From IMG/VR virus record IMGVR_UViG_3300031578_000065, positions 1-47,968 of that record: a stretch of DNA of 47,968 bases. One strand, given 5' to 3'. This stretch comes from a virus. This document shows, piece after piece, positions 1 through 47,968 of this stretch. The translations under genes were made by a program, and so were the position numbers. Each line of letters opens with the position of its first letter. The stretch's first letter is position 1. The notes under the pieces were generated by a model that had not been told where the DNA came from, searched no databases, and saw only the letters and a list, made by a program, of their open reading frames with translations.

Positions 1-641
1 TCATCCCTGCTTGCCAACCTAAGCTGACAAGTCTTGCAAACATAGACGCTTGGGTTGTTCGCAAGCCACACTCCCGGCTCGCCTATACGACCGCATGTCA
101 TGCAAGAACTTTCCTCATCCAACACAACCCTAGCAGGCGGGCGCACGGATTGCAAGGCGGCGCGCATGGCTCGGCGATATTCGATCCTTGTTTCCTCCGT
201 CATCGTCTTCCATGGCTCAAGCATCCCTAAACCCCTGATGCGCATATGCGTCTCAGCCGCGCGTTCCACATCCGCATCACTCGGCCACTCGGCCTGCTGT
301 TCGAGGGTGGCGGGCAGCGTTTCCAAGGCTCGGTATGCCATAGCGCGAACATCCCACAACGCATCAGGAACAGCAGGTCCGGTGCTTTTGTCGTGCACAA
401 ACTCTGCAATTTCCGTTAGCGCATCTCTGTGCAGACTGACAGCGTTCCATGCCTCCCAATCCGCCCCGCCATCGCCCTCGGCGTCGATGAGTGCCGCGTC
501 AAGCTTCTTGGCATTGAACTCGACAACTTCTTCATTCCATGCATGCCCCCAGCCTTCTCCATTCCATGAATGCCCCGATTCACCGCGCATAACAGTCTTG
601 CGCGTTCCGGTTTTTAGAAACTCCCTCAGCTTGTCTTTCAT
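1..641 (-). CDS. Hypothetical protein with C-terminal zinc-ribbon-like Cys pairs (3' end cut by window)
   Basis: An open frame runs from the ATG at 641 to the window edge without a stop (213 codons), so the protein is incomplete. It starts MKDKLREF, and near the cut end it has two Cys-x-x-Cys pairs (CMTC and CKTC about 20 residues apart), a likely small zinc ribbon. Function unknown. The ATG overlaps the stop of the upstream gene (ATGA) and is preceded by an AGGAG Shine-Dalgarno that lies inside the end of that gene. It is a mosaic paralogue of the gene at 47389-47751: both begin MKDKLRE, share a DAEGDGGA segment, a S-D-x-DVE segment and an M-R-A-A-L segment, but differ between these. Confidence 0.75.
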   Translation of the reverse strand, partial: MKDKLREFLKTGTRKTVMRGESGHSWNGEGWGHAWNEEVVEFNAKKLDAALIDAEGDGGADWEAWNAVSLHRDALTEIAEFVHDKSTGPAVPDALWDVRAMAYRALETLPATLEQQAEWPSDADVERAAETHMRIRGLGMLEPWKTMTEETRIEYRRAMRAALQSVRPPARVVLDEESSCMTCGRIGEPGVWLANNPSVYVCKTCQLRLASRD

Positions 642-934
642 GCCTGCTTCTCCTGTTCGTCGCGCATACGTTCCTTCAGTTCATGCTTCCAGCGAAGACG
701 CAGGCCGTGTTGTTCTGCGCATGCCACGCCAAGACCTATGACCTTGCGCACTTCCTCAAGTGCGGCATTATCGTTTGGCGATCCCGACCATGCTTCCTTG
801 GCCTGACGCAGCGCGTTTTCCATCAACAGAATCCAGCCGCCAACTTCATGCGGATGCTGGTCAATGGCTCCCCACTTGCGATCCTGATAATCCCGCTCGG
901 AATCCACTGCGGCATACACGTCAATTCGATTCAT
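638..934 (-). CDS. Small conserved phage protein (98 aa), unknown function
   Basis: It starts at the ATG at 934 (MNRIDVYAAVDSERDYQD), behind an AGGAG supplied by the repeated junction sequence at 940-953. The pattern of an acidic YAAVDSERDYQDRKWG start, HPHEVGGW, and a closing GVACAEQHG helix resembles a family of small phage proteins that I cannot tie to a function; it is faintly like the all-alpha nucleotide pyrophosphohydrolase helices but lacks a clear EExxE. It overlaps the upstream gene by 14 nt and the downstream gene by 4 nt. The C-terminus RDEQEKQA is encoded by the shared junction repeat. Confidence 0.7.
   Translation of the reverse strand: MNRIDVYAAVDSERDYQDRKWGAIDQHPHEVGGWILLMENALRQAKEAWSGSPNDNAALEEVRKVIGLGVACAEQHGLRLRWKHELKERMRDEQEKQA
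648..661 (-). repeat. Junction repeat copy (GACGAACAGGAGAA on the minus strand)
   Basis: One of four exact copies of a 14-nt sequence at the boundaries of small genes (648-661, 940-953, 1179-1192, 47758-47771). It encodes DEQEK at the end of the upstream gene and supplies the AGGAG ribosome-binding site for the next gene. Confidence 0.85.
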
Positions 935-1172
935 CACCTTTCTCCTGTTCGTCATGCGGGGCAGCAGTGGCGATACGCATGCTGTTGCATTTGTGGCACG
1001 GGACGAGGACATAGTTGCTGTAGTGCAAAACCTTCCACGCTTTCGCTTCTTCGATACCGTGCTCATTGATGGCATCGTTGATGTGTTCGTGGCACGCCTG
1101 CGTGTAACTAGCGCAATAAATCGGCTGTCCAGTTTCGTCTTGAACGATGAAAACCTCGGAAGATTCGTTCAT
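921..1172 (-). CDS. Hypothetical protein (83 aa) with His/Cys residues
   Basis: It starts at the ATG at 1172, overlapping the stop of the upstream gene (ATGA). No family recognised. It contains C-x-x-C (PCHKC) and a CHEHIND segment that could hold a metal. It ends HDEQEKGDESN, where DEQEK comes from the junction repeat at 940-953. It lies in a run of tightly overlapped accessory genes in the minus block, between the 122-aa gene and the 98-aa gene; this pair of genes is absent from the second copy of the locus at the right end of the window. Confidence 0.7.
   Translation of the reverse strand: MNESSEVFIVQDETGQPIYCASYTQACHEHINDAINEHGIEEAKAWKVLHYSNYVLVPCHKCNSMRIATAAPHDEQEKGDESN
940..953 (-). 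repeat. Junction repeat copy
   Basis: Exact copy of the 14-nt junction sequence at the 83-aa/98-aa gene boundary. It carries the Shine-Dalgarno for the ATG at 934. Confidence 0.85.
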
Positions 1173-1537
1173 TCACCTTTCTCCTGTTCGTCGCGGTAGC
1201 ACATGGCGGCTTGCCATGCAAACCAGCGGTCATTGACGCGGAAATCGTTGTAGCTGCCATCTGCATTTTGTCGAAGGTGCATCGGCTTGCCGCGCTGCTT
1301 GCACGCTTTCCATCCGGCAGTCGTCTGCACCCACTGCTCGAAAGCTTCTCGGCTTGTACCAACCGTGGCAGCATGACTGCGAAGATCGAGACCACAAGCA
1401 TCAATGACGGCCTTTATGCCGATTTCAATTGACGCGTCAAACTGATGGTTATTCGGATCGCCATTCATCCCGACCATCTCAGACAGCGCTGTGACCGAGG
1501 CGACTTTATAAAGGTGCACGTATTGCTGAAGATTCAT
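1169..1537 (-). CDS. Hypothetical protein (122 aa), duplicated at the right end of the window
   Basis: The start is the ATG at 1537, 6 nt behind a GAGGAG and overlapping the stop of the J-domain gene (ATGA). The protein has no family I can name; the C-terminal half is Trp-rich (EQWVQTTAGWKACKQRG, then NDRWFAWQAA). A second copy of its C-terminal 72 codons is present at 47748-47968; the nucleotide sequences are identical over 127 bp and differ at scattered bases beyond. It ends YRDEQEKGE, encoded by the junction repeat. The 'KPMHLRQNADGSYND' segment could be a beta-hairpin displaying Trp residues; this is speculation. Confidence 0.75.
   Translation of the reverse strand: MNLQQYVHLYKVASVTALSEMVGMNGDPNNHQFDASIEIGIKAVIDACGLDLRSHAATVGTSREAFEQWVQTTAGWKACKQRGKPMHLRQNADGSYNDFRVNDRWFAWQAAMCYRDEQEKGE
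1179..1192 (-). repeat. Junction repeat copy
   Basis: Exact copy of the 14-nt junction sequence at the end of the 122-aa gene; it provides the ribosome-binding site for the ATG at 1172. Confidence 0.85.
1263..1389. repeat. Exact 127-bp direct repeat, internal copy
   Basis: Base for base identical to 47842-47968. The match is broken at its left edge by a T/C difference (1262 versus 47841) and at the right only by the window end. It lies inside the 122-aa gene. The length equals a common largest k-mer of short-read assemblers, so the repeat probably marks where the assembly graph branches. Confidence 0.9.
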
Positions 1538-1842
1538 GGCATTCTCCTCTGGCCTGAACCGCGGCAGGTCTTGCACGTCATAAGCAGGCTGCCGCCGAAG
1601 GATGCCTTGCCCGGTATACTCCGCTTACCCGATCCGCCGCAGTCAGCGCATGGCTTCGGCAGCATCACGTGACGGCGGGCCATGTCGTAGGCTGTCTTCA
1701 TCTGGTGGAAGGTAGTTGCCGACCCACCTGGCTTATCGGGGTGCGTGGCGCTCCTCTGAGCCCGCCACGCGGTTTCGACGTCCAGGACAGACGCAGTATC
1801 AGGGTCCAAGCCCAGCAGCGTGAAAGCGGCGCTCGTTCTCAC
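1534..1842 (-). CDS. Small J-domain protein with zinc-finger CxxCxGxG motifs (DnaJ-like)
   Basis: 102 aa. Residues 7-58 read as a J domain: a helix (FTLLGLDPD), a basic helix with AWRAQRSATHPDK containing the HPD tripeptide at 34-36 that stimulates DnaK ATPase in the family, then a helix ending AYDMARRH. Residues 65-98 carry two CxxCxGSG repeats (CADCGGSG and CKTCRGSG), half of the usual DnaJ zinc-finger region. There is no Gly/Phe linker or substrate-binding domain. It starts with GTG at 1842, overlapping the upstream stop (GTGA). It probably recruits host DnaK to a phage target or titrates it; the target is not evident. Confidence 0.85.
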   Translation of the reverse strand: MRTSAAFTLLGLDPDTASVLDVETAWRAQRSATHPDKPGGSATTFHQMKTAYDMARRHVMLPKPCADCGGSGKRSIPGKASFGGSLLMTCKTCRGSGQRRMP

Positions 1843-2051
1843 TTGACCATCCTCGGCTTGTTGATGACTCGCGACGGGTAACTATCACGGCCGAAGTCCT
1901 TGATCGCCTTTAGCGGCTGAGCGCTGGCGCCAGGTGGCAACCGTTGAATCCAGCCGCCCTGATCCAGGAAGTTGGCGATATCCCGCCCGACGCTTGTCAT
2001 TTGGGGTTCATCCTTTTGCGGGTAATCGTAATCACGACGTTTCCTTGACAT
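1839..2051 (-). CDS. Hypothetical protein (70 aa)
   Basis: The ATG at 2051 (MSRKRRDYDYPQKDE) is chosen because GGGGAG lies just upstream; the longer open frame has no such signal. It is a basic N-terminus followed by a helix (GRDIANFLDQGGWIQRL) and a basic tail. No family recognised. It overlaps the start of the J-domain gene by 4 nt and so is probably co-translated with it. Confidence 0.65.
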   Translation of the reverse strand: MSRKRRDYDYPQKDEPQMTSVGRDIANFLDQGGWIQRLPPGASAQPLKAIKDFGRDSYPSRVINKPRMVK

Positions 2052-2052
2052 G

Positions 2053-2211
2053 TCACGCTCCCCACAAGAATGAACGGCGCTGAGAACGAGCAGCCAAGAC
2101 TTCATCGTCAGTGCGGACAGGTCGGCGGGCCTGAGCCGCCCGAGCGCGCTCCAGCTTCTTGCGGGCACGCTTCAGTTGATCGGGTGTCGGGTTAGGCATT
2201 GACTTAGCCAT
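2053..2211 (-). CDS. Hypothetical basic protein (52 aa)
   Basis: Starts at the ATG at 2211 (MAKSMPNPT). It is strongly basic and helical (QLKRARKKLERARAAQARR), consistent with a coiled-coil or nucleic-acid-binding peptide. It sits 4 nt after the upstream gene and 1 nt before the next start. Function unknown. Confidence 0.6.
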   Translation of the reverse strand: MAKSMPNPTPDQLKRARKKLERARAAQARRPVRTDDEVLAARSQRRSFLWGA

Positions 2212-2215
2212 CAGG

Positions 2216-2449
2216 TCAATTCTCCGGTGGTGTGTAATCAAGAAAACTGTCCTCGACTTCACCAAGTAAATCGTTGATGAATGGAATCAGGTCGCGGACA
2301 ACGATCGGCAGACAGCACGGCTCGACGGTGCCGCTGGTCTTGGGCATCGCCAATTCGTTCGCCAGGTTCTTGCGGGCTCGCTCAGCTTGGGGAACCGTAG
2401 GGGCGAAACGAATGTAGCCACCGACTGTGACGCGGTAGACGTTTGCCAT
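2216..2449 (-). CDS. Hypothetical protein (77 aa)
   Basis: MANVYRVTVGG begins at 2449. It is a short beta-like start followed by an acidic C-terminal helix (NDLLGEVEDSFLDYTPPE). It has no recognised family. The Shine-Dalgarno is weak compared with its neighbours. It is the first gene after the terminator at 2473-2510, so its expression probably depends on read-through or on a promoter not seen here. Confidence 0.6.
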   Translation of the reverse strand: MANVYRVTVGGYIRFAPTVPQAERARKNLANELAMPKTSGTVEPCCLPIVVRDLIPFINDLLGEVEDSFLDYTPPEN

Positions 2450-2472
2450 GGATTTGGTACTCAGCCAGGAAG

Positions 2473-2510
2473 AAAAAAGCCCGCAACGTCAAGGGGTGAA
2501 CATTGCGGGC
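2473..2510 (-). terminator. Rho-independent terminator, minus strand
   Basis: On the minus strand, GCCCGCAA pairs with TTGCGGGC (8 bp, 16-nt loop) and is followed at once by six T residues (plus-strand A run 2473-2478). It stops leftward transcription before the small accessory genes, and it may end the short transcript described at 2473-2622. Confidence 0.8.
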
Positions 2511-2622
2511 AAGGGCCACTGCCAGCGGCCTCGGAGATGTTCATGCATAAAGGTCAGAACTACAACGCGGCCCTGGCGCGATGGTCTACATGGCGAGCTC
2601 CCGCAAGGTTAAAGAAAGAGGA
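2473..2622 (-). ncRNA. Candidate small RNA between promoter-like and terminator sequences
   Basis: This 217-nt gap between genes has a promoter-like pair at 2629-2657 and an intrinsic terminator at its left end, which would give a ~150-nt RNA read leftward. Inside is a second hairpin, GGCCGCT paired with AGTGGCC with a 3-nt loop. No convincing tRNA cloverleaf is present. Two weak alternatives are a 27-codon reading frame on the same strand (MNIS..., with a CPQC motif, stop just upstream of the gene at 2449) that lacks a Shine-Dalgarno, or a simple attenuator for the downstream genes. No expression evidence is available. Confidence 0.35.
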
Positions 2623-2628
2623 GGTCTG

Positions 2629-2657
2629 ATCGTAGGCTGACGGGTCTTTTTTGTAAA
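2629..2657 (-). promoter_or_regulatory. Putative sigma70-type promoter, minus strand
   Basis: TTTACA (2657-2652) and TACGAT (2634-2629) are separated by 17 nt. The -35 box differs from consensus at one base and the -10 box at two. It lies just after the primase-helicase stop. A similar GTTTACAA box occurs at 38571-38576. Confidence 0.4.
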
Positions 2658-2666
2658 CGTGGAGTT

Positions 2667-4781
2667 TTAATATCCGGCTCGCCGAGCCTTCCCGCCTTTG
2701 GTCGGTGCATCCAGGTGCACGACGACTTCCGCCGGCGTAGCCTTGGCCCATCGCTCGGGGTTCCTGAGGATGTAATAGCGGTCTTGCCCGGCCTTCGTCT
2801 TGATAGGCCTGCCGTCCAGAACCTGGATCGCTCCAGCGCGCCTCAACTCGCGCCCCAGCCCATTCGCCGTCGTCCCTGTCCTGCCCGTCGGATCGTACAG
2901 CATCAACAGGTCTTTGTTGGTGAACAAATCCTTTTGGATGGCTATCTCGCCGACCTTCAGCACGACATCCGGTGATTCGAGCAAGTGCCGCGTCCATGAG
3001 CCCAGGTCCGAACGAACGTCGGCGATCATCCGCTCCTTCGCATTGGTATTGAGCGCCGGTGCATTCGGGTTGAAGTCGCCGAGGTCCAGGTTCATGAGGT
3101 AATCGAAGACCGCCGATGCACCGCCCGATGCAAGCCAGAGTCCGTATTCCATGTAGAACTCCTCAGGCAACGGAGCCACCATCACTTCATGGATGAAAAA
3201 TCGCCGGTCGTCGTCTTCAAGAAAAAACGAGTCGGCGTGATTGGAGGTGAACAGGTAGTTGATGCAGTCGCGCACCTCGTAGCTGGGCACGTACTTCGGA
3301 TTGACCCGGTTCATCTTCTGAGTAATCAGCTTCTTCAGGATGTCGTTATCCTGGCGCTTGTTCGACCCGGTAACATCGTCACCCATCACGAATTGCCGGT
3401 TCTCAGCCCACTCGTTGAAATTCGTATGCAGGTCGTCCTGCTTGATTTCCGTGAAGTTGACACCATATATCTCAGCCATGGTGTAACCGACCAGTGATTT
3501 GCCCGTACCGTGCCGACGACCGTGGATGACAGCGGATGAAAACACCTTGGACCCTGGATACTGCAGCGGGTAGGCGAGCCATCGCTCGAACCATTGCCTG
3601 GTTGCCTTGTTGGTTCCGGTGAACAGGTGATCGAGTAGTTTGCGGAATGGCGTGACGTCGCCCTTGACTGGCTTGCATCCCCAACCTGCCCATGTGTTGT
3701 ATCCCACGAGCCCGTTCTCGGTCACCAGGCGGCTGCCGCCAGGCGCGTATGTAATCCTGTGTACCTCAGCCCGCAATGGCCACTTCATCCACTCAGCGCC
3801 GGCACTGACCCGCTTGTAACGAACCAGGCCCTCGGCCGTGAGTTCTTTGATGCTGGTCGTCAGCGGAGCCGCGAGATGCGACTTCAATGCATCTGGCTTA
3901 TGCTTGGCCTGAGTCACCTTGTCGATCAAGAGACCTGGATTTGCCACGTAGACATAGCGCTCGTTCAACTCGAACAAGGATTTCGTCAGACCCAGCGCAT
4001 CGGCGTCATGCAAGAGCGCCGTGAATTCAGCTTCAGCGCTGGCGCCATGGAACACGAGGAAGTCATCGAGGCCGACCTTGGTATCTGGACCGAGGACTTC
4101 AGGCAGCCAGGCAAGGTAGACGAAGGCACCGCGCCGCTCCAGTTCGACTGCCAGCTGGCGCAGCGCAGCGACGACGCCCTCCTTCGTGCTGAGGTCAGAA
4201 TCGAACACGACATATACATTGCGGCGCCGCCAGTCGAAATCTTCGAGCGCGGGCAGCAGGTCCATGCCGTATTTGCTGCAACGGAAGTTCCATACACCAC
4301 CGAGGCCCATGACGGGGAACCCGGCCTTGACGCCCGCGGCAGCCTTGAGTTCGCCCTCCGTGATAATGAGACTGATGTCTGTGTCGGGCAGCGCATCAGC
4401 CCAGTTGTACGTGCGCGGGAGATACAGGCAAGGCAGCGAGCCAGGTAATTGAACATAGCGCCGGTCTTTCGACCGGTCGGCGATCGCGGCGAACTCGATA
4501 GTTGAACCGAGATACCTCAGCCGGTAGAAAGGATCAGACGCTGGCCAATCCGCCATGGGTTTTCCCCATGCGTCGAAGTAGTTGAGGCGCAGCGCGGGCT
4601 TCGCGTCGAAGCTGAAATTCAATGCAGCGGTATCGGCTGGCGCCACGGGCTCGATACCCAATGCGATGGCGTCGCCCTGGTCGAGCCCGGACAGTGCCAG
4701 CTTCTCAAGAAACAGGTCCATGGTGACAGGGTCAACAGGCGCCGCAACTTTGCGTGATTTCATAATTGTGCTCGATGACAT
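2667..4781 (-). CDS. Primase-helicase: Toprim-like (DUF3854) plus D5/P4-type helicase (DUF5906)
   Basis: 704 aa. The N-terminal third looks like a Toprim-type domain: LIITEGELKA (Glu142) and VVFDSDLS (Asp194, Asp196) are the acidic motifs that hold metal in such primases. The C-terminal half is an SF3/D5-like ATPase: Walker A GRRHGTGKS at 421-429, then a VMGDDVTG acidic motif and a FTSNH sensor-like segment. Together they are expected to unwind the fork and prime or assist phage DNA synthesis. It starts at the ATG at 4781; the Shine-Dalgarno is weak. It lies alone between two long intergenic regions in the minus block, downstream of the putative HTH gene, while the DNA polymerase is in the right arm of the same strand. 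Confidence 0.85.
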   Translation of the reverse strand: MSSSTIMKSRKVAAPVDPVTMDLFLEKLALSGLDQGDAIALGIEPVAPADTAALNFSFDAKPALRLNYFDAWGKPMADWPASDPFYRLRYLGSTIEFAAIADRSKDRRYVQLPGSLPCLYLPRTYNWADALPDTDISLIITEGELKAAAGVKAGFPVMGLGGVWNFRCSKYGMDLLPALEDFDWRRRNVYVVFDSDLSTKEGVVAALRQLAVELERRGAFVYLAWLPEVLGPDTKVGLDDFLVFHGASAEAEFTALLHDADALGLTKSLFELNERYVYVANPGLLIDKVTQAKHKPDALKSHLAAPLTTSIKELTAEGLVRYKRVSAGAEWMKWPLRAEVHRITYAPGGSRLVTENGLVGYNTWAGWGCKPVKGDVTPFRKLLDHLFTGTNKATRQWFERWLAYPLQYPGSKVFSSAVIHGRRHGTGKSLVGYTMAEIYGVNFTEIKQDDLHTNFNEWAENRQFVMGDDVTGSNKRQDNDILKKLITQKMNRVNPKYVPSYEVRDCINYLFTSNHADSFFLEDDDRRFFIHEVMVAPLPEEFYMEYGLWLASGGASAVFDYLMNLDLGDFNPNAPALNTNAKERMIADVRSDLGSWTRHLLESPDVVLKVGEIAIQKDLFTNKDLLMLYDPTGRTGTTANGLGRELRRAGAIQVLDGRPIKTKAGQDRYYILRNPERWAKATPAEVVVHLDAPTKGGKARRAGY

Positions 4782-4992
4782 CGCCAGTGGAACGATGCTA
4801 TTGGTTAACCCGGCTCCTCAGCACGAAGCCACTCCGGGTCTTGCGCTTACTCAGCAAAGCGAAAGGCGCCACCCCGGCCATACCTTGGCTGAGGAGGTGC
4901 GCAAGCTACGGCGGCCCAATGGGTGGCAGCTTACGCGACCGGGGTGGCAGACGAATCGTACTAAAACGAAAAATTGGAAGATACGTGGATGC
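4782..4992. other. Intergenic leader of the primase-helicase gene
   Basis: 211 nt without a gene. It holds a nested inverted repeat (separate entry) and, 30 nt before the primase start, a GCTGAGGAG sequence on the minus strand that matches the ribosome-binding sites of several other genes but is not followed by a start codon. No convincing promoter was seen. Confidence 0.5.
4868..4948. repeat. Nested inverted repeat (possible structured leader or origin element)
   Basis: The outer arms GCCACCCCGG (4868-4877) and CCGGGGTGGC (4939-4948) are perfectly complementary over 10 bp. Inside, GCGCAAGCT (4899-4907) pairs with AGCTTACGC (4928-4936) at 8 of 9 positions, with a 20-nt loop. The strands also carry GGGTGGCAG twice (4921 and 4942). 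It could fold in the leftward transcript or be a protein-binding site. Confidence 0.55.
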
Positions 4993-5514
4993 TCAGTAGC
5001 GAAGTCGGCCGTCGGGGAAATGAGTATAGCGGCGAAGTGCCTCGTCGAGTCGATCGAACGACTTGACACCTGAGGCTTCCACCTTGTCGGCGTCTGACCG
5101 GAAAAACGACACTTGCCCATGAGGGAAGTGTTTGTGTTTGATAATGCTTGAGTAACCTGATTTCGATTGCTCTGCCGTCATCAGCCGCAGGTCGATCGTT
5201 CGCACTGTGACACCACAGAACTTGGCGAGCTGGTTGCGCGACGCAGCGAAGCGCCCGAGCTCGTTCATGTTTTCGATCGTACCGATGTCGACGATCAGGT
5301 CGACGACGTCGTAGGCAGTGACGTGGTGCTTGGACGCGGCTGGATTATTCCACTCCGGTCGACGACCAACGAGAAACTTGTTTTCGCTCAGCGACGAACC
5401 GCAGGCTTTGAGGACCGTATCGAACTCACTGCCCAGCGACGCACGCTGCTGATGCGGAATCGCGTTGCTGAGCTTTGCGAGGGCGAGAACCAGAGTTGGA
5501 TCGAGCTTTGACAT
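4993..5514 (-). CDS. Putative DNA-binding protein (173 aa), possible early regulator
   Basis: First gene of the leftward block. The ATG at 5514 (MSKLDPTLVLALAKL) is chosen for the GGAG 6 nt upstream; the longer frame to 5586 lacks one. Residues around 90-115 (GRFAASRNQLAKFCGVTVRTIDLRL) look like a helix-turn-helix, with the Ala-x-x-x-Gly-Val-x-x-x-Thr-Ile pattern. The C-terminus is mixed charged. Its position next to the divergent AT-rich region and upstream of the primase suits a regulator or a replication initiator helper. The family was not recognised. Confidence 0.6.
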   Translation of the reverse strand: MSKLDPTLVLALAKLSNAIPHQQRASLGSEFDTVLKACGSSLSENKFLVGRRPEWNNPAASKHHVTAYDVVDLIVDIGTIENMNELGRFAASRNQLAKFCGVTVRTIDLRLMTAEQSKSGYSSIIKHKHFPHGQVSFFRSDADKVEASGVKSFDRLDEALRRYTHFPDGRLRY

Positions 5515-5912
5515 GGAAGGCTCCAGGTAAGGAAGTCGCGCGGATCGTACGACCCAGGCGGATAATTGAGGAACGTGTAATTTCATGTGAGGCTGAAGAA
5601 ACGGGATAAGACCGGGGATTCTGAGGGACCAAGCGCGCTGTTACAGAAAAGCAGGATACAGGGGCTAACTTCTTTCTATCTCTTCCTTTCTTCTTCCTTA
5701 TATTTATTATAAAGAAGATTAAGCTTAAAGAGAAAGAGTTAGGGGGTGTATCTGTCTTTTCTGTATCGGCGCTTGATTTCGCCAGTTTAGTCCTCCACAT
5801 GTCAGTGGAAAAAACTTCGGTCTAAGATCTCCGCCGATATCGATGATTCGCCCCCATGAGCACAGCGCGGTGAGTCACAGGCTGAAAATTACCAATCACA
5901 TCTGGAGTTGAT
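5515..5912. other. Divergent intergenic region between early (minus) and late (plus) blocks
   Basis: 398 nt without a convincing gene. The centre (about 5670-5740) is very AT-rich for this genome. The minus strand carries a perfect TATAAT at 5711-5706 but with a poor -35 partner. The plus strand holds CTGGAG just ahead of the endolysin ATG. This is the natural place for early and late promoters and possibly a replication origin. Confidence 0.55.
5655..5751. repeat. Imperfect inverted repeat flanking a polypyrimidine/polypurine AT-rich core
   Basis: The left arm GATACA-GGGG-CTAACT-TCTTTCT (5655-5677) is mirrored by the right arm AGAAAG-AGTTAG-GGGG-TGTATC (5731-5752 approx.). The GATACA, CTAACT and CTTTCT blocks pair and the G4 blocks face each other. 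Between the arms a ~30-nt almost pure pyrimidine run is followed by a purine run, with TTATATTTATTATAA at the centre. This is typical of an easily melted site such as an origin or strong promoter. Confidence 0.5.
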
Positions 5913-6401
5913 ATGTCGCCCATTGAGCTTGGTGTCCAGATAATCAACGACACGTTATCAAATCATCTCCCATTCACACTTGACTCCCGCGCCGCACGCA
6001 TTCAACTGCTCAGCACAGGATTGCAGGAATCAGGATTCACCCACCGGGTGCAAATGGGTGGCGGCCCAGCTCACAGCTTCTGGCAGATCGAAGGCGGCTC
6101 GATGTCTGGCATCGCCAACATCTTCACTCACCCCCACGCCCTGGCCATCCTTCAAGACGTCTGTGCGAAGTACGCCATACCGTGTACGCGTTTGGATGTC
6201 TATACGGCGATCGCGGCAAACGACTTGCTCGGCTGCGTCGTCGCCCGGCTCATATACCTGTGCAATCCCGACCCGTTTCCCACACCTGGAGATGAACAAG
6301 CTGCCTGGCACTACTACTTGGGCACGTGGCATCCAGGTCGCCCGCGCGTTGATTCATGGGCAACGAACTACGCGGCTGCGCTTCAGGCGTTCCCTGCATG
6401 A
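5913..6401 (+). CDS. Putative endolysin (lytic-transglycosylase/lysozyme-like)
   Basis: 162 aa. The segment LQESGFTHR (Glu39) followed by GGPAHSFWQIE (residues 50-60) follows the pattern of lytic transglycosylase-like muramidases, a catalytic Glu in ESGF and a later G-x-x-x-x-Q motif. No signal peptide is visible, so export would depend on the downstream holin. It is the first gene of the late plus block, with CTGGAG 6 nt upstream of the ATG. The next gene starts within its stop codon (ATGA). The family is not certain from sequence alone, but the position directly ahead of membrane and spanin genes supports lysis. Confidence 0.65.
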   Translation: MSPIELGVQIINDTLSNHLPFTLDSRAARIQLLSTGLQESGFTHRVQMGGGPAHSFWQIEGGSMSGIANIFTHPHALAILQDVCAKYAIPCTRLDVYTAIAANDLLGCVVARLIYLCNPDPFPTPGDEQAAWHYYLGTWHPGRPRVDSWATNYAAALQAFPA

Positions 6402-6742
6402 GCAATCCCGTCGACTTCTGGATGGGACTTAGCGCCAGGTTGAGCGCTGCCGCTGCCGGGTTGGCTGGTGGCATTGTTTCTTTGGCGTTCATTCAATCGC
6501 TGACCCTGCTTCAGGCGGCAACCTCAGTCGTCGTTGGTATGCTTACGGCGTACTACCTGACGCCCGCCGTCATCTTCGGCCTCGGTCTCGATACACACCT
6601 GCAGAATGCGATCGCCTTCGTCATCGGACTCAGTGCATTGAGCATCCTGCCGACGATCAAACAAGCCGCGATCCTCTGGGCACGGCACATAACGCGCGAA
6701 CCTCCAGAGCCACCCAACAAAGGCAAAGGAGAAAGCCCGTGA
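6398..6742 (+). CDS. Putative holin (multi-span membrane protein)
   Basis: 114 aa starting at the ATG at 6398, overlapping the endolysin stop. Three hydrophobic segments are visible: residues about 10-35 (AAAAGLAGGIVSLAFIQ), 40-60 (AATSVVVGMLTAYYL) and 70-92 (AIAFVIGLSALSIL), followed by a charged tail EPPEPPNKGKGESP. Small size, position and topology suit a class I holin that forms the inner-membrane hole. It could instead be the antiholin, with the next gene as the holin. Confidence 0.65.
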   Translation: MSNPVDFWMGLSARLSAAAAGLAGGIVSLAFIQSLTLLQAATSVVVGMLTAYYLTPAVIFGLGLDTHLQNAIAFVIGLSALSILPTIKQAAILWARHITREPPEPPNKGKGESP

Positions 6743-7059
6743 ACTATGAAGGATTCATTAACCTGGTCGACATCGTTTTCCTCGTCATCATCCTGGTCTG
6801 CGGATTCGACGAGGTCCGCCTGGTCAATGGGGTGCGTAACCCGATCAGAGCCACGGCATTCGGATTCATCACGCTCGGTGCGTTCGGCTGGATCAGCGCG
6901 GACATCTACGGCGCGACGTTGCATTGGTACATGATCTTGCTGCATGGCGGATTCGCCGTCGCTGCCATGATCCTCGCGCGTACGCACTACGCTCGCCGCC
7001 GGTCGACCGACAACCCATTCCGTCACCCGATCCAACGTCAATGGAGAAACCGCAAATGA
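6739..7059 (+). CDS. Second small membrane protein of lysis cassette (holin/antiholin candidate)
   Basis: 106 aa. Starts with GTG at 6739, inside the stop of the previous gene (GTGA). It has three predicted membrane segments (LVDIVFLVIILVCGF, AFGFITLGAFGWISADIYGA, MILLHGGFAVAAMILA) and a strongly basic C-terminal tail (HYARRRSTDNPFRH). It probably works with the 6398 gene product in timing lysis; which of the two is the holin cannot be decided here. Confidence 0.6.
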   Translation: MNYEGFINLVDIVFLVIILVCGFDEVRLVNGVRNPIRATAFGFITLGAFGWISADIYGATLHWYMILLHGGFAVAAMILARTHYARRRSTDNPFRHPIQRQWRNRK

Positions 7060-7358
7060 TCAGCTCGATTGTCGGCGCCATCATCAGCTGGCTGTTCAGT
7101 TTCCTCCAGGCCGAGCACCAGAAGAAGGTCGTGGAAAAGGCCATTGTCACCATGAACCAGGGCGGCGTGCTCGCTACCCACCAAGCGGAGCAAACAGATG
7201 TCCAAATCCAAACTGATCGTCAACAGAACCAGGCAGCATCGGATCATGTGGCTTCTCTCGGGCCTGATGCTCGCGGCCACGGTGGTAGCCTGCTCGAACA
7301 ATCCGCCGCTGCCCAGCGCAGCGTCGACGCGGCTAACAATCAACTGCCACGAGCATGA
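7056..7358 (+). CDS. Putative i-spanin (Rz-like)
   Basis: 100 aa. It starts at the ATG at 7056, in the stop of the previous gene (ATGA). One N-terminal membrane segment (ISSIVGAIISWLFSFLQ) is followed by a charged, Gln/Ala-rich periplasmic region of likely helical coiled coil (EHQKKVVEKA, QTDVQIQTDRQQNQAA). This is the topology of an Rz-type i-spanin. Its last 160 nt overlap in another frame with the lipoprotein gene at 7198, the classic Rz/Rz1 arrangement. Confidence 0.65.
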   Translation: MISSIVGAIISWLFSFLQAEHQKKVVEKAIVTMNQGGVLATHQAEQTDVQIQTDRQQNQAASDHVASLGPDARGHGGSLLEQSAAAQRSVDAANNQLPRA

Positions 7359-7587
7359 ACCCGATGAACTTCTTCCGCCGGTTCCTCAGCCGAATCCACT
7401 CGTTGACGCCGACCCTGGTGGTAACTACGCCCGCGCCGTTGCAATCATCGATGCCCTGCGCGCCTACGCCGGACAGCAGAATGTCTACATCACTCGAGCC
7501 GCTGGTGCCCTCCAGCTCGAACGTGAGAAACGCCACGGCACCGCAACCTGCCTCGATTCACTCCGAGCCCAAGGGCTCATCTACTGA
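7198..7587 (+). CDS. Putative o-spanin lipoprotein (Rz1-like)
   Basis: 129 aa in the +1 frame relative to the i-spanin. It has a basic N-terminus, a hydrophobic stretch (WLLSGLMLAATVV) and a lipobox ending in Cys (TVVAC-SNN), so signal peptidase II cleavage and outer-membrane anchoring are expected. A proline-rich stretch (ELLPPVPQPNP) follows, typical of Rz1. Longer than lambda Rz1: the C-terminal part (NYARAVAIIDALRAYAGQQ...) is extra. Together with the i-spanin it would fuse inner and outer membranes, which implies a Gram-negative host. Confidence 0.7.
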   Translation: MSKSKLIVNRTRQHRIMWLLSGLMLAATVVACSNNPPLPSAASTRLTINCHEHEPDELLPPVPQPNPLVDADPGGNYARAVAIIDALRAYAGQQNVYITRAAGALQLEREKRHGTATCLDSLRAQGLIY

Positions 7588-7603
7588 CCTGGAGTCAATG
7601 CTC

Positions 7604-7906
7604 ATGCAAATCTTCGCCCTGATCCTCAGCTTCATCACCCAACTCCCCGGCATCATCAAGCTCATCGACCAGGTCGTGTTGAGCGTCGAGGCGGCGTTCC
7701 CGACGGCCACCGGCAGCCAGAAGCTCGCAGCTGCAACGGCCAAGGTCAACACGATCCTCGGAGCGGCCGTGACCGACTCGCAGGCGCTCAGCAGTTTGAC
7801 GACCGTCGTCACGCCACTGATCAACGCATCCGTCGCGGCGTTCAATGCAGCAGGCACGTTTACCAAGCCTTCAACTGGCTCCGCACAGGCGGCGCCGACT
7901 GCCTGA
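7604..7906 (+). CDS. Small hydrophobic protein at end of lysis cassette
   Basis: 100 aa from the ATG at 7604, with GGAG 9 nt upstream. The frame is open back to an ATG at 7355 that overlaps the i-spanin stop, so a 183-aa form is possible, but the extra part is low complexity and overlaps the o-spanin. The N-terminus is a hydrophobic helix (IFALILSFITQLPGIIKLI), followed by Ala/Thr-rich helices and a small-residue tail. Function unknown; the place suggests a further membrane component of lysis. Confidence 0.6.
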   Translation: MQIFALILSFITQLPGIIKLIDQVVLSVEAAFPTATGSQKLAAATAKVNTILGAAVTDSQALSSLTTVVTPLINASVAAFNAAGTFTKPSTGSAQAAPTA

Positions 7907-7930
7907 TACCTGGTTGACAGCAATGCATCT

Positions 7931-7957
7931 AAGTGACCCTGACGATCAGGGTCACTT
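7931..7957. terminator. Hairpin terminator between lysis and packaging genes
   Basis: AAGTGACCCTG (7931-7941) and CAGGGTCACTT (7947-7957) form a perfect 11-bp stem with a 5-nt loop, followed by TTGCTC, so the U tract is short. It separates the lysis cassette from the packaging genes and may be partial. Confidence 0.7.
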
Positions 7958-7975
7958 TGCTCAAGGAGAGACGTG

Positions 7976-8074
7976 ATGAATACCAAGTATCAATGGCAAC
8001 TGAAACCGCTCGTCGTGTGCATCTGCCTGGCGCTATACGGCATTCCCATTCCCCTGGTTCTTCGCCCACACTGA
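7976..8074 (+). CDS. Very small membrane peptide (32 aa)
   Basis: A short frame beginning MNTKYQWQLKPLVV with an excellent AAGGAG 7 nt upstream of the ATG at 7976. Its core (LVVCICLALYGIPIPLVL) is one membrane span. It ends 2 nt before the terminase small subunit start, so translation may be coupled. It follows the hairpin terminator directly. Function unknown; a lysis regulator or a leader peptide for the packaging genes are both possible. Confidence 0.5.
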   Translation: MNTKYQWQLKPLVVCICLALYGIPIPLVLRPH

Positions 8075-14846: not shown

Positions 14847-15887
14847 ATGGACCACATCGAAGAACTGCACATCCTGGCCCAGGATTACGGTATCCAGTTC
14901 GTGGATACACGTATCGAGGGCTATCTCGACCGAGCGAAGTTCGGTGGCAATTTCGGCCTCGCAGCCGACGCGCAGCCGACGCTCATCTCCACCAGTAATG
15001 CCGGTATCCCGGCCTACCTGGCCAACTACCTCGACCCGAAGCTCATCGCTGTCTTGGTCTCGCCGATGAAGGCAGCCAAGATCATCGGCGAGACCAAGAA
15101 GGGCGATTGGACCACCCTCACGGCTCAGTTCCCGATCGTCGAATCGACGGGCGAAGTGTCATCCTACGGCGATTACAGCAACAACGGTCAGTCGTCCGTC
15201 AATGTCAACTGGGTGCCACGTCAGTCGTACCACTTCCAGACCGTCACCAACTGGGGCGAGCGGGAGCTGGATATCGCCGGTGAAGCACGCATCGACTACG
15301 CCGCACGACTCAACATCAGTTCGGCACTGACCATCAACAAGGCAGCGAACAAGATCGCTTTCTTCGGCGTGGCCGGCCTGCAGAACTATGGCCTGCTGAA
15401 CGATCCCGATCTGCCGACACCGATCAGCCCAGCGCCGACCGGTACGGGCTCCAGCGTCCTCTGGAGTACCAAGACGGCTGATTTGATCTATGCCGATATC
15501 CTGGCTCTGTTCACGCAGCTGATGAACCAGGCGAACGGCACGATCGACCAGGAGCAGAGCATGAAGCTCGTCCTGTCGCCGACCCTCAGCACCAACCTCA
15601 ACAAGACCAACACGTACAACGTCAACGTCAACGACCAGATCAAGAAGAACTTTCCGAACCTGGTTATCGAGACGGCGGTGGAGTACGACACGGCAGGCGG
15701 CCAGCTGATGCAGCTGATTGCCACGGAAGTCGAAGGGCAGGAGACGGCGACTTCGTGCTTCACCGAAAAGATGCGCGCTCACCCGGTCAAGGTTGGCCTG
15801 TCCAGCTTCAAGCAGAAGAAGTCGGCTGGCAGCTGGGGCTCGATCATCTTCCGGCCGTTCCTGATCGCCGGCATGTTGGGGATGTAA
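14847..15887 (+). CDS. Major capsid protein (DUF2184-like)
   Basis: 346 aa. It contains the GIPAYLANYLDPKLIAVLVSP and TNWGERELDIAG segments typical of the DUF2184-type HK97-fold capsid proteins of this group, and a QETATSCFTEKMRAHPV ending. It forms the head shell. No separate delta domain is needed because scaffold-like sequence is in the DUF2213 fusion upstream. A terminator-like hairpin follows at 15921-15948, as expected for an abundant product. Confidence 0.85.
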   Translation: MDHIEELHILAQDYGIQFVDTRIEGYLDRAKFGGNFGLAADAQPTLISTSNAGIPAYLANYLDPKLIAVLVSPMKAAKIIGETKKGDWTTLTAQFPIVESTGEVSSYGDYSNNGQSSVNVNWVPRQSYHFQTVTNWGERELDIAGEARIDYAARLNISSALTINKAANKIAFFGVAGLQNYGLLNDPDLPTPISPAPTGTGSSVLWSTKTADLIYADILALFTQLMNQANGTIDQEQSMKLVLSPTLSTNLNKTNTYNVNVNDQIKKNFPNLVIETAVEYDTAGGQLMQLIATEVEGQETATSCFTEKMRAHPVKVGLSSFKQKKSAGSWGSIIFRPFLIAGMLGM

Positions 15888-15920
15888 TCCGGCTATACCT
15901 GAACGCACATGCGTCATCAC

Positions 15921-15948
15921 AAGCGCCCACTCACATGGGTGGGCGCTT
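15921..15948. terminator. Terminator-like hairpin after the capsid gene
   Basis: AAGCGCCCAC (15921-15930) pairs perfectly with GTGGGCGCTT (15939-15948) around an 8-nt loop, followed by TTACTC. The U tract is poor, so it may be a partial terminator or an RNA-stabilising 3' end for capsid mRNA. Confidence 0.65.
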
Positions 15949-15969
15949 TACTCGAGAAAGGAGCAATTC

Positions 15970-16410
15970 ATGTCAAAGCAATCAGTACAGATGCAGACTC
16001 GCCAGGGCAACCAGCCTCAGCCGAACCCCGTCGTCAAAGACCCGTCCGGTTCCAAGGTTCTGGTCGGTTGCAAACTGCCGCAGGGTCTTCATCTTCACCT
16101 CGGCGAAGCCCGTGTTACGCTGAATGGCACGAACAGTGCACGTATCATTGGCGGTTACGGGTTGACCGAAGTCGACGCTTCCTTCATGGAGACGTGGCTC
16201 AAGAACCACGCGGATACCCGCGCAGTCAAGAACGGTTTCATCTTCGTGCAGAGCAAGTTGAACGACGCCGAAGCAGAAGCGCGGGACAACACCGAGAACA
16301 AAAACGGGTTCGAAGGCGTGAATCCGAAGGAACCGGTCAAAGGTACCAAGGGCATCACCAAGATAAAAGAAAATGGTGATACTGATAACGACAATGACAA
16401 GGAGGATTGA
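15970..16410 (+). CDS. Hypothetical protein downstream of capsid (146 aa)
   Basis: Starts at 15970 behind AAAGGAG. A beta-rich central part (KVLVGCKLPQGLHLHL, ARVTLNG...RIIGGYGLTEVDASFMETWLKNH) is followed by a disordered, charged tail rich in Asn, Asp and Lys. Similar small proteins occur between capsid and neck genes in related phages; the function is unknown. It could be a minor head or assembly protein. Confidence 0.65.
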   Translation: MSKQSVQMQTRQGNQPQPNPVVKDPSGSKVLVGCKLPQGLHLHLGEARVTLNGTNSARIIGGYGLTEVDASFMETWLKNHADTRAVKNGFIFVQSKLNDAEAEARDNTENKNGFEGVNPKEPVKGTKGITKIKENGDTDNDNDKED

Positions 16411-43952: not shown

Positions 43953-44831
43953 TCAATACTTCTTGCGAGCGTTGCCGGTGGCTGTCTTGGCAGCAGGTTT
44001 CTTGCTCGTCGCCTTACCGCCTTTCTTCGGCGCGGCTTCTTCCTGGTCGTCGGCAACCAGGCTGAACGGGACCATGATCAATTCTTCGGCTTCTTCGTGT
44101 CGCTTGATGATGGTACCGATCAACTCGGCCGGCAGTTCTTCGATGGCTTCGAACGTGACCAGGAACTGACTCTTGGCATCGGGCACAACCTTGACTCGCG
44201 TGACGACGGCGAACGGCGGCCGGTTCAACGATCCCTTCAGCTGCTTGACGTAGCGGGCATATCCCTGAGCCGACATGACGGGCAGGTTGAGGAATGCTCC
44301 TTGCGCCTGCTCGTAATGCGATTCGTCTTCGATCATCTTGAACTCGCCCGACCGCTTGTCGAACGTGCCCGCCGGAATCACGATGAGCCGACGACGGTTG
44401 CCGCAAGCCTTGCCACGGCCCTTCGCGGCTGAACCGAATTCGTTCATCAGGCAACCCTGGCACGTTGCATGCTGAGCCTGCCCAGCAGCGACGACCGATT
44501 CATGCGGCGCCATGGCGATGGCGTCCCGACCCAAGGCGAAACATGCCCGCGGCTGAGGCGTATCCGGGTCGTAGTCCGTATCGAAATACTCGTTCGCGAG
44601 AATGTGATCGAGGATGATCACGGCCATCTCGCTATTGGGCAATGCCTCGCCATCGAACGACAGCACGCCGGACTTCAGCGCGAACGACTTCATACCAGAG
44701 CCGGTATTTGCCTCGGTCGCTGCCGCCTGCTCCGCGTACTTGGCAAGCTGCTCATCCCACGCTGCCATGCTGGTTCCGGGTTTCTTGGTTGCCGTTGCCT
44801 TCTTCGCAGCGGGTTTCTTCTGTGTTGCCAT
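43953..44831 (-). CDS. Conserved replication-region protein with Cys motifs; possible ssDNA-binding protein
   Basis: 292 aa. Both ends are Lys/Ala-rich (KKPAAKKATATKKPG; KKPAAKTATGNARKKY). The core has YFDTDYDPDTPQPRACFALG, ATCQGCLMNEFGSA and GKACGNRRRLIV, giving four Cys that could hold zinc. Such proteins are found next to PolA genes in related phages; a single-stranded DNA-binding role is my inference from place and composition, not proven. The acidic middle and the beta strands (SQFLVTFEAIEELP) are compatible with an OB-like fold. Confidence 0.6.
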   Translation of the reverse strand: MATQKKPAAKKATATKKPGTSMAAWDEQLAKYAEQAAATEANTGSGMKSFALKSGVLSFDGEALPNSEMAVIILDHILANEYFDTDYDPDTPQPRACFALGRDAIAMAPHESVVAAGQAQHATCQGCLMNEFGSAAKGRGKACGNRRRLIVIPAGTFDKRSGEFKMIEDESHYEQAQGAFLNLPVMSAQGYARYVKQLKGSLNRPPFAVVTRVKVVPDAKSQFLVTFEAIEELPAELIGTIIKRHEEAEELIMVPFSLVADDQEEAAPKKGGKATSKKPAAKTATGNARKKY

Positions 44832-46422: not shown

Positions 46423-46907
46423 GGCACGAACTCCTCCAGTGGAGTGGAATAAGGAAGCATCAGGGGATGCCGCGGGTCGCCGAGCTTAGTCAGCCCAAAA
46501 CACTTGAGCGGGCGGTTGTGATCGTTCAACATCATGCGCTCCACTGCGATCGCCGTTCGCAGCCGCTCAGGTACTTTCATGCGACTACCCCACATCAGGA
46601 TGACAAGATCAGCGTCACGATAAATCTGGTCGAGTACCTTCCGGTTGTAGGGCCCAGATGGGTCACTGGCCATAGCCAGTTCATTGACATCAGTTGCACA
46701 GTATGCGAAAACATTTCTGACTGTGAACCGCGCTGCACCGAACTGATAAGCAAATGTCATCAGCTTCCGCAGCGTTGCATCATTATCGACTTCATTTGCC
46801 TTCGACGGATTGATGCCGATGAAAGCAACGGTCCTGCCGATTTTCCGTGGCAAGATCCTGTCGAGCCGATACCGATACATCCTGCCCTCAGAGAACACGG
46901 CGCTCAT
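46419..46907 (-). CDS. DUF1643 family protein
   Basis: 162 aa. The pattern AFIGINPSKANEVDNDATLRKL, NVFAYCATDVNEL, LVILMWGS and a closing GLTKLGDPRHPLML is typical of DUF1643, a family of unknown function common in phages and mobile elements. It starts at 46907 (ATGA overlap with the upstream stop). Confidence 0.8.
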   Translation of the reverse strand: MSAVFSEGRMYRYRLDRILPRKIGRTVAFIGINPSKANEVDNDATLRKLMTFAYQFGAARFTVRNVFAYCATDVNELAMASDPSGPYNRKVLDQIYRDADLVILMWGSRMKVPERLRTAIAVERMMLNDHNRPLKCFGLTKLGDPRHPLMLPYSTPLEEFVP

Positions 46908-47392
46908 GATTTTTGCTCCGTCTGTGCATCGCCAATGGCGGCGCTGAGTTTGTCGGCTTGCTCAACGTCAAACCTATGACCCTTTTGCATGTACGCGATC
47001 ACCTCCCGCACCGCATCCTCCAGCGCGGTGGGCTGGGCTGGCGGCGCGATGGTGGACCCAATGGATACCCATCCTTCCGGCGGCGCGCTGCCTTCCATCT
47101 GCCCGGGCCATGCCGGAGCGCCGAGACGTATGTCATCCACCTGCGCCGCCTGTGCTGGCGGGTGCGAGGCTCGATCACTTATCGCATTCCACATTCCCTT
47201 GAAGTCGATTTTTTGCTTAGGCGCCTCATCCGCCTTGATGTGCTCGGCAGTCTGCGAGATGTGGCGGGTGATGGTGTCGGCCATAGCCCCAAGTTCACCG
47301 CAGGCTTTCACATCTAGGCATGCCTCAGAGCCGCCGTACCAGCTCCGCAACTTGTCCCGCACCTGCTCAAGCGTCATCGTCTTGTCGGTCAT
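46904..47392 (-). CDS. Hypothetical protein (162 aa)
   Basis: MTDKTMTLEQVRDKLRSWYGG starts at 47392 (overlaps the upstream stop). Helical N- and C-terminal parts (LEDAVREVIAYMQKGHRF) flank a Pro/Ala-rich linker (APPAQPTALE). Unknown function. Confidence 0.65.
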   Translation of the reverse strand: MTDKTMTLEQVRDKLRSWYGGSEACLDVKACGELGAMADTITRHISQTAEHIKADEAPKQKIDFKGMWNAISDRASHPPAQAAQVDDIRLGAPAWPGQMEGSAPPEGWVSIGSTIAPPAQPTALEDAVREVIAYMQKGHRFDVEQADKLSAAIGDAQTEQKS

Positions 47393-47751
47393 TTCCTGTT
47401 CCTCACGAAAGTCTCAAGGGCGGCGCGCATGGCTTCTGTTATTCCTGTACTTCCATCATCGGCCGCCACGAATGCAGAGCGCGACGCCTCCACATCCTCA
47501 TCACTCACCACGCCAGATCGCGCGGGGTGGGGGAAAAGGGGAATCCAGCCGTCTTTAGCCCACGATCCCTCGGGGCATGCCATCACTGTTCGCGCGTCAC
47601 GGAAGGAGCTATCATAACCCTCGTCAGATGGGCGCATCCAAGCCACCGCCCCGCCATCGCCCTCGGCGTCGAGGATTTCGGTTAGCGCATAAGCGCAATG
47701 GCCGTTGATGCTGCGCATCCACTCCGCCAACTCCCTCAGCTTGTCTTTCAT
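47389..47751 (-). CDS. Hypothetical protein (120 aa), paralogue of the gene at 1-641
   Basis: The start at 47751 (MKDKLRELAEWMRS) is used because of the AGGAG in the junction repeat and the ATGA overlap with the upstream stop. It shares MKDKLRE, DAEGDGGA, a SD-x-DVE segment and MRAALE with the 1-641 gene, interspersed with different sequence. Function unknown. Confidence 0.75.
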   Translation of the reverse strand: MKDKLRELAEWMRSINGHCAYALTEILDAEGDGGAVAWMRPSDEGYDSSFRDARTVMACPEGSWAKDGWIPLFPHPARSGVVSDEDVEASRSAFVAADDGSTGITEAMRAALETFVRNRK

Positions 47752-47968
47752 GCCTGCTTCTCCTGTTCGTCGCGATAGCGCGTGGCGGCTTGCCATGCAA
47801 ACCAGCGGTCATTGACGCGGAAATCGTTGTAGCTGCCATCCGCATTTTGTCGAAGGTGCATCGGCTTGCCGCGCTGCTTGCACGCTTTCCATCCGGCAGT
47901 CGTCTGCACCCACTGCTCGAAAGCTTCTCGGCTTGTACCAACCGTGGCAGCATGACTGCGAAGATCGA
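47748..47968 (-). CDS. Partial copy of the 122-aa gene (5' end cut by window)
   Basis: Reads in frame from the window edge (DLRSHAATVGTS...) to the stop at 47748, with C-terminus RYRDEQEKQA. It matches the gene at 1169-1537 over its last 72 codons with only a few changes. The first ~50 codons lie outside the window. It is followed directly by the MKDKLRE-type gene, whereas in the left copy two other genes lie between. Confidence 0.75.
   Translation of the reverse strand, partial: DLRSHAATVGTSREAFEQWVQTTAGWKACKQRGKPMHLRQNADGSYNDFRVNDRWFAWQAATRYRDEQEKQA
47758..47771 (-). repeat. Junction repeat copy
   Basis: Fourth exact copy of the 14-nt junction sequence; it supplies the ribosome-binding site for the ATG at 47751. 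Confidence 0.85.
47842..47968. repeat. Exact 127-bp direct repeat, terminal copy
   Basis: Identical to 1263-1389; it ends exactly at the window edge. Confidence 0.9.

Follow-up and report, generated by a model that had tools for sequence, protein, structure and literature searches.

Comparison of a 47,968-base viral contig with related contigs supports gene shuffling in phage gene arrays, with breakpoints at a 14-bp sequence (GACGAACAGGAGAA) that ends one gene and provides the ribosome-binding site of the next; independent contigs outside the one analyzed back this conclusion. The analyzed contig, which is the whole IMG/VR record IMGVR_UViG_3300031578_000065, is referred to below as the window. 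The recurrence of the junctions, the one-sided homology around them, the ends of homologous blocks at the junction, and the different genomic settings in which it lies are directly supported by the alignments described here, and the action of recombination enzymes at the shared sequence would account for this pattern.

Junctions in the window

The window has PHROG matches to thymidylate synthase, DNA methyltransferase, helicase, DNA polymerase, two exonucleases, primase, terminase, and head-maturation protease, and neither tRNA genes nor Rfam families were found in it. Its nearest named DNA matches are the primase genes of Stenotrophomonas and Pseudoxanthomonas phages (68-70%); a blastn search with window 1-8000 against 50,697 phage records returned primase matches only, in 4 records, and a tblastn search of named phage collections with the 120-aa and 122-aa proteins described below returned none. 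From matches to Stenotrophomonas, Xanthomonas, and Luteibacter phages, a host among the Xanthomonadales may be guessed. The gene adjoining that of the DNA polymerase encodes a 292-aa protein (43953-44831, minus strand) with lysine- and alanine-rich ends, for which only the uncharacterized PHROGs phrog_27714 and phrog_23155 were found.

As claimed in the preliminary description, the 14-mer lies at four gene boundaries. The window contains four exact copies, compared with a mean of 0.36 in 100 shuffles (largest count, 3), and the sequence is not common throughout this genome, as no further match with up to two mismatches was found in the window. The pattern read backwards had no match anywhere searched. 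All four copies are on the minus strand, like the genes that they join. At the left end, a 122-aa gene (1169-1537), an 83-aa gene (921-1172), a 98-aa gene (638-934), and a gene starting with MKDKLRE (1-641; at least 213 aa, running off the contig end) follow one another in the order originally described, and they are joined by the copies at 1179-1192 (tail DEQEKGE, with AGGAG and an ATGA overlap), 940-953 (tail DEQEKGDESN), and 648-661 (tail DEQEKQA, with an ATGA overlap), respectively. At the right end, the copy at 47758-47771 joins a second copy of the 122-aa gene (47748-47968) to another MKDKLRE gene (47389-47751, 120 aa). The direct joining of these two genes had also been noted, and the junction is indeed present, but only the last 72 residues of this 122-aa gene are there, since it is cut by the contig end. 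Every copy is translated as DEQEK followed by QA, GDESN, or GE and a stop codon, and every copy supplies AGGAG to the following gene, whose start overlaps the stop; the spacing from AGGAG to the next ATG is approximately 6-7 bases in 4/4 copies, i.e., that of a Shine-Dalgarno core before a start codon. The proposed dual role of the sequence, as the end of one protein and as the ribosome-binding site of the next gene, therefore holds at all four copies, and the remaining 13 exact copies, which are in other stretches, lie at boundaries of the same type.

The two junctions with MKDKLRE genes form an extended junction composed of the 14-mer, GCAGGC, and the MKDKLRE start (619-664, minus strand), which is identical over 46 bp to 47729-47774. 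The left and right MKDKLRE genes have in common their first 23 bases, which sit within this 46-bp stretch, and a 30-bp internal linker; they are different in between and are not the same gene. The nearest match of the right version is a related locus, L131, in which another gene lies upstream; the MKDKLRE junction and the first part of the gene are 97.7% identical to it over 131 bp. Pfam gave no match for the 98-, 83-, or 122-aa protein or the two MKDKLRE proteins. The 122-aa protein has one weak PHROG match (phrog_343, E = 0.00086), the 98-, 83-, and 120-aa proteins have none, and nine cassette proteins of other loci yielded a single weak one. The AlphaFold model of the 98-aa protein, predicted from a single sequence, is mediocre (mean pLDDT, 68.3), and a PDB search with it returned nothing below an E value of 0.001.

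The two ends of the window had been described as two loci in one genome, which was not confirmed. Window 1165-1389 recurs at 47744-47968, with an identity that is free of mismatches from 1263 up to the contig end, and the next base differs. No suffix of the contig longer than its last 127 bases (47842-47968, equal to 1263-1389) is repeated. JGI assemblies end at k = 127, and the simplest reading of an exact 127-base suffix repeat is that the assembly closed on itself at a 127-base k-mer, with 1263-1389 as the closure point. What lies at the left and right ends is probably a single locus in two alternative versions, on a circular map of approximately 46.6 kb, in which positions 1-1262 are probably a variant tip or branch of the right-end locus; the two versions most likely represent genotypes that coexist there. 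Two true paralogous loci at both ends of one linear genome would agree with the presence of both on one contig and with the contig ends that IMG/VR classes as linear. This alternative is unlikely, because a suffix repeat of exactly 127 bases with differences from the next base is what a circular assembly meeting a variant would produce, and the class of linear is itself expected, as the repeat copy starts 1262 bases inside the contig and is missed by an end-repeat detector. The suggestion of cassette insertion or deletion at the shared sequence stands with respect to the breakpoint at the 14-mer, but removing two genes from the left version would not simply yield the right one, as the downstream MKDKLRE genes differ. 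Two further contigs break inside arrays, at contig position 1 (L202) and at the contig end (L126), which is expected if several versions coexist. From such contigs, we infer junction variants within one population. Assembled phage contigs can end in arrays, so that the variants of one locus may be read as two loci.

Ends of homology in related arrays

Related loci were retrieved by searches with the 122-aa protein (L005 and L006), with the 98-aa protein (L126, L127, and L128), and with DNA patterns (L102, from the same record as L005, and L130, L131, L151, L192, L202, and L231). The source datasets are 3300031669 (L005, L126, L131, and L151), 3300031578 (L130 and L202), 3300050120 (L192), and 3300006804 (L231). 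Nine array stretches were compared, namely, the left and right ends of the window and L005, L126, L130, L131, L151, L192, and L202; one more copy of the 14-mer, in L231, is outside the nine-stretch counts. When whole fetched stretches were compared, L130, L131, L192, L202, and L006 belonged to one phage group, whereas the window, L005/L102, L126, L151, and L231 have less than 0.7 kb of DNA in common with that group or with each other. The arrays occupy six genomic settings, which are not six proven phage genera, as most of the records are fragments.

The nine stretches contain 17 exact copies of the 14-mer, and the gene orders around them differ. In 17/17 copies, a stop codon follows 21-30 bases after the copy start in the frame that carries DEQE. 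Among the 136 possible pairs of copies, homology (identity above 70% over 45 bases, ungapped) is confined to a single side in 12, covers both sides in none, and is lacking on either side in 124. The 98-aa gene of the window is 99.0% identical to that of L126 over 306 bp, extending exactly from the first base of one 14-mer to the last base of the next, and its neighbors differ on both sides. The window is also the same as L126 over 220 bp that end at the last base of a 14-mer. In L126, four copies bound successive genes of 95, 98, 48, and 68 aa, which are followed by an MKDKLRE gene. The 48-aa genes of L126, L005, and L130 match one another at 92-96%, with bounds within four bases of the 14-mers, except that the match of L005 and L130 continues into their common MKDKLRE start.

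Modules upstream (U) and downstream (D) of the joint were classified over 84 bases on each side, including variant copies with up to four mismatches. The C-terminal module of the 122-aa gene, U0, is joined to D0, D3, and D6 among the loci compared, U2 to D2 and D6, U5 to D7, D11, and D17, and U19 to D3 and D24; conversely, D6 is preceded by U0, U2, and U16. The tail of the 122-aa gene thus meets three downstream modules, the 98-aa gene two, and the 48-aa gene three. The 21 homologous blocks of at least 80 bp have 65 internal ends, 22 of which are no more than 12 bases away from the edge of a 14-mer. In 5000 random shifts, which test random placement rather than alternative gene boundaries, this number averaged 1.36 and never exceeded 12. 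For all 141 blocks, 89/371 ends are at a 14-mer compared with 7.3 expected, a figure to which short blocks partly made by the joint itself contribute. No named linker fits 18 of the 65 long-block ends; several of these 18 lie where a contig ends or a stretch was cut.

Besides the 14-mer there are further conserved linkers, and some of them are inside genes. On the minus strand of the window, internal linker A (DAEGDGGA) lies in the left (463-488) and right (47648-47673) MKDKLRE genes, linker B (PARSGVVSDED) at 47492-47526, and linker D (QPTxLEDAVR) at 47007-47035 in the gene that follows the right MKDKLRE gene. Counted with mismatch limits, DAEGDGGA occurs in 8 of the nine stretches, PARSGVVSDED in 5, and QPTxLEDAVR in 4; in 8 stretches, the first gene has the tail WQAAxRYR. 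These linkers were picked from the same sequences, so their counts are descriptive, whereas the definition of the 14-mer came solely from the window. A second joint of like design, CGACGCACACCGGAG, has eight copies in four loci (L005:7594, 8164, 8435, and 8883; L151:8457 and 8654; L131:5286; and L130, reverse strand, 3746). Read by eye, most of these copies encode the protein tail DRRTPE and give GGAG to a GTG or ATG that overlaps the stop; for L130 and L131, the overlap has no listed gene after it. At L131:4314-4631 and in the first array gene of L192, a variant of the 14-mer joint (RDEQDQ or RDEQEQ) is read through, and the first gene continues as a fusion into the following module, whose own end is DEQEKQA. 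In an unrelated 91-kb phage contig (L190), the near-identical sequence CCGACGAACAGGAGAAC is present on the reverse strand at approximately 1674 and 3406, at two gene boundaries, and is read in another frame than the 14-mer.

Most array contigs were fetched with patterns that hold the junction, so the presence of the 14-mer in every array is partly built in. Among the five loci fetched by protein alone, the 14-mer is present in two (L005 and L126, both from one dataset) and absent from L006, L127, and L128. L006 has the same flanking genes as the L130 group but other genes inside, the core of the 122-aa protein being set in another gene, and it contains neither the 14-mer nor internal repeats. 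In this relative, which lacks the junction, the gene order is not preserved. On the other hand, L006 varies without the 14-mer, so the joint is unnecessary for variation of the locus, and it belongs to a subset of these phages.

The 14-mer alone is no marker of arrays: a viral scan placed it at a loosely defined boundary in 18 of at least 118 unrelated loci and elsewhere in the rest. Gene-boundary repeats were found in 19 of the 222 stretches compared, and 8 of the 19 are the window and array loci. A genome scan with a degenerate joint gave three loci, two in Oceanimonas and one in a deltaproteobacterial MAG, none of which is array-like, judged by the genes at the match only. In the Oceanimonas loci L224 and L226, a gene ending in DEQEKQA lies directly before ATGAA, apparently outside an array. 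The L151 and L005 arrays matched named collections in short pieces only, in 4 and 2 records, respectively; two of these records (L232 and L233) showed nothing array-like by eye in their feature tables and no boundary repeats.

Proposed recombination at the linkers and alternative explanations

We consider it likely that phage genes are shuffled at short, translation-preserving linkers by homologous recombination or strand annealing. The region would be a hypervariable accessory-gene locus of small exchangeable modules, joined to one another by a handful of short and highly conserved DNA linkers, of which the 14-mer is the commonest. As the 14-mer combines a gene end (the DEQEK tail) with the Shine-Dalgarno site of the next gene just before the overlapping stop and start, a crossover or annealing event inside it would leave the upstream protein complete and the downstream gene translatable, whichever genes are involved. 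Phages of the same host could swap, insert, and delete genes at such linkers with the help of phage or host recombinases, and selection may keep the linkers since both translation and exchangeability are preserved. The enzyme, the direction of the events, the sharing of hosts, and selection for exchangeability as such are parts of this proposal that we infer.

Candidate enzymes are encoded close to two arrays. L126 has an ERF-family annealing recombinase gene (L126:1201-1947) approximately 1.5 kb before its array, and the L151 record has a RecT-family match (contig 15628-16119) approximately 1.5 kb before its own; the window record gave no ERF, RecT, or Enc34-type match, the Enc34-type search having been run without a positive control. 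The open reading frame after the ERF gene of L126 resembles a YqaJ-type exonuclease by eye. Segment sizes of 31-34 bp for RecA and 23-27 bp for Red beta have been described (PMC3945230). Copies on the same contig have only 14-20 exact bases in common (12/12 pairs), which is below these sizes and counts against exchange at the short joint. The extended MKDKLRE joint, with 44-47 exact bp, alone exceeds them. Exchange may mostly use the longer joints, and deletions might occur at the shorter ones at a low rate.

A further, tentative possibility, which we rate as more doubtful than probable, is that unrelated phages with hosts in common maintain the same plug, a recombinase-free counterpart of the integron cassette, and that exchange itself is under selection. 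The plug would consist of the C-terminal tail, the ribosome-binding site, and the overlapping start (14-46 bp), so that any small gene bearing it could be dropped into any array and translated at once. There would be at least two plug types, DEQEK and DRRTPE, and the selected exchange might, e.g., keep anti-host or anti-defense genes changing.

Several other explanations of the shared junction were weighed against shuffling at linkers. The 14-mer could be no more than a favored translation signal, its tails and ribosome-binding sites having converged or been copied, in a mosaic produced elsewhere by illegitimate recombination and subsequent selection. Its core, CAGGAG, is a Shine-Dalgarno site, and cluster K mycobacteriophages are described as having a conserved start-associated 13-mer (PMC3203893). 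We nevertheless regard this explanation as improbable: GACGAAC, which lies outside the Shine-Dalgarno core, is kept in variants that were not selected by the exact 14-mer (the RDEQ and RDER forms in L130, L131, L192, and L126), homologous blocks stop at the 14-mer, and conserved linkers also occur inside genes, where there is no start. That the assembler chimerically joined unrelated phages through the repeat is very unlikely. The window contig does end in an array, like those of L126 and L202, and its 127-bp self-overlap suggests a branch in the graph; however, the joints are mostly 14-48 bp, below the inferred k of 127, reading frames are intact across them, and the 48-aa cassette followed by an MKDKLRE gene was found in different surroundings in L005 (3300031669) and L130 (3300031578).

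The movement of cassettes by a site-specific recombinase that recognizes the 14-mer, in the manner of an integron or an invertase, would suit tandem arrays such as that of L126, which superficially resemble integrons. It is, however, extremely unlikely, given that neither PF00589 (controls positive in 14/14 genomes) nor PF00239 was detected in any of the eight records profiled, of which seven are shorter than 23 kb and probably fragments. Moreover, the sequences at the four junctions fold no better than shuffled ones (z-scores of -0.36 to 1.49), and several unrelated linkers are in use.

Comparison with known systems

In integrons, small exchangeable genes are arrayed one after another and separated by a site that recurs, and the present arrays have the same layout. 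They differ in that the tyrosine recombinase (IntI; PF00589) was found in 0/8 records, mostly short and probably fragments, and in that no foldable site is present at the four junctions. The PeSL promoter-terminator cassettes of T4-like phages (Arbiol 2010; Comeau 2014) are reportedly repeated regulatory pieces that take part in modular shuffling. PeSL, a promoter plus a stem-loop at a junction, is a transcriptional element, whereas the joint described here is coding. No promoter-like sites were detected in window 1-2000 or 46800-47968, and terminator-like sites numbered none in the former and one in the latter, which is inside a gene, away from any junction, and is no more than obtained in shuffles.

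The Start-Associated Sequences of cluster K phages are described as a repeated asymmetric 13-mer with AGGAG just before start codons, sometimes with the upstream stop codon inside, and as occurring genome-wide with a proposed role in translation and not in gene shuffling (PMC3203893). The 14-mer likewise holds a Shine-Dalgarno core just before the start codon (4/4 window copies), and the cluster K consensus GGGATAGGAGCCC has no match in the window with up to two mismatches. The nearest single precedent is the gene 67-68 junction of phages Island3 and Brujita, where the C-terminal 18 residues and a 60-bp 3' end are common to neighbors and where gene gain or loss is ascribed to recombination at that repeat (PMC3029335). 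It concerns one event in one phage pair, and the description of this junction mentions no recurring array, unrelated backbones, or role in ribosome binding.

The conserved boundary sequences of lambdoid phages, for which Susskind and Botstein (1978) and Clark et al. (2001; HK620) are reportedly the sources to be credited, are among the closest known parallels. They are short sequences shared at junctions and were proposed as recombination points (cited in PMC3029335). As in the lambdoid case, a short sequence is common to the junctions of otherwise unrelated modules (17 exact copies), and homology stops on one side at this shared sequence (12/136 pairs and 22/65 block ends). In contrast to the lambdoid case, a linker of 14-46 bp appears as many as four times within one tandem array, is found in about six genomic settings, and is at once a protein tail, a ribosome-binding site, and a start overlap. 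No description of such a tail-plus-ribosome-binding-site joint was found in the literature searched by title and abstract start, a search of partial coverage. Whether phage mosaicism arises from shared linkers or from blind illegitimate joining is a long-standing question. The contigs compared here form a natural collection in which a single linker is found repeatedly and the breaks coincide with it; the survival of recombinants would be explained by the linker's two functions. The linker idea also becomes testable through the synonymous bases of one joint of 14-46 bp. In our best reading, the 14-mer arrays are a variant of the mosaicism known from conserved boundary sequences.
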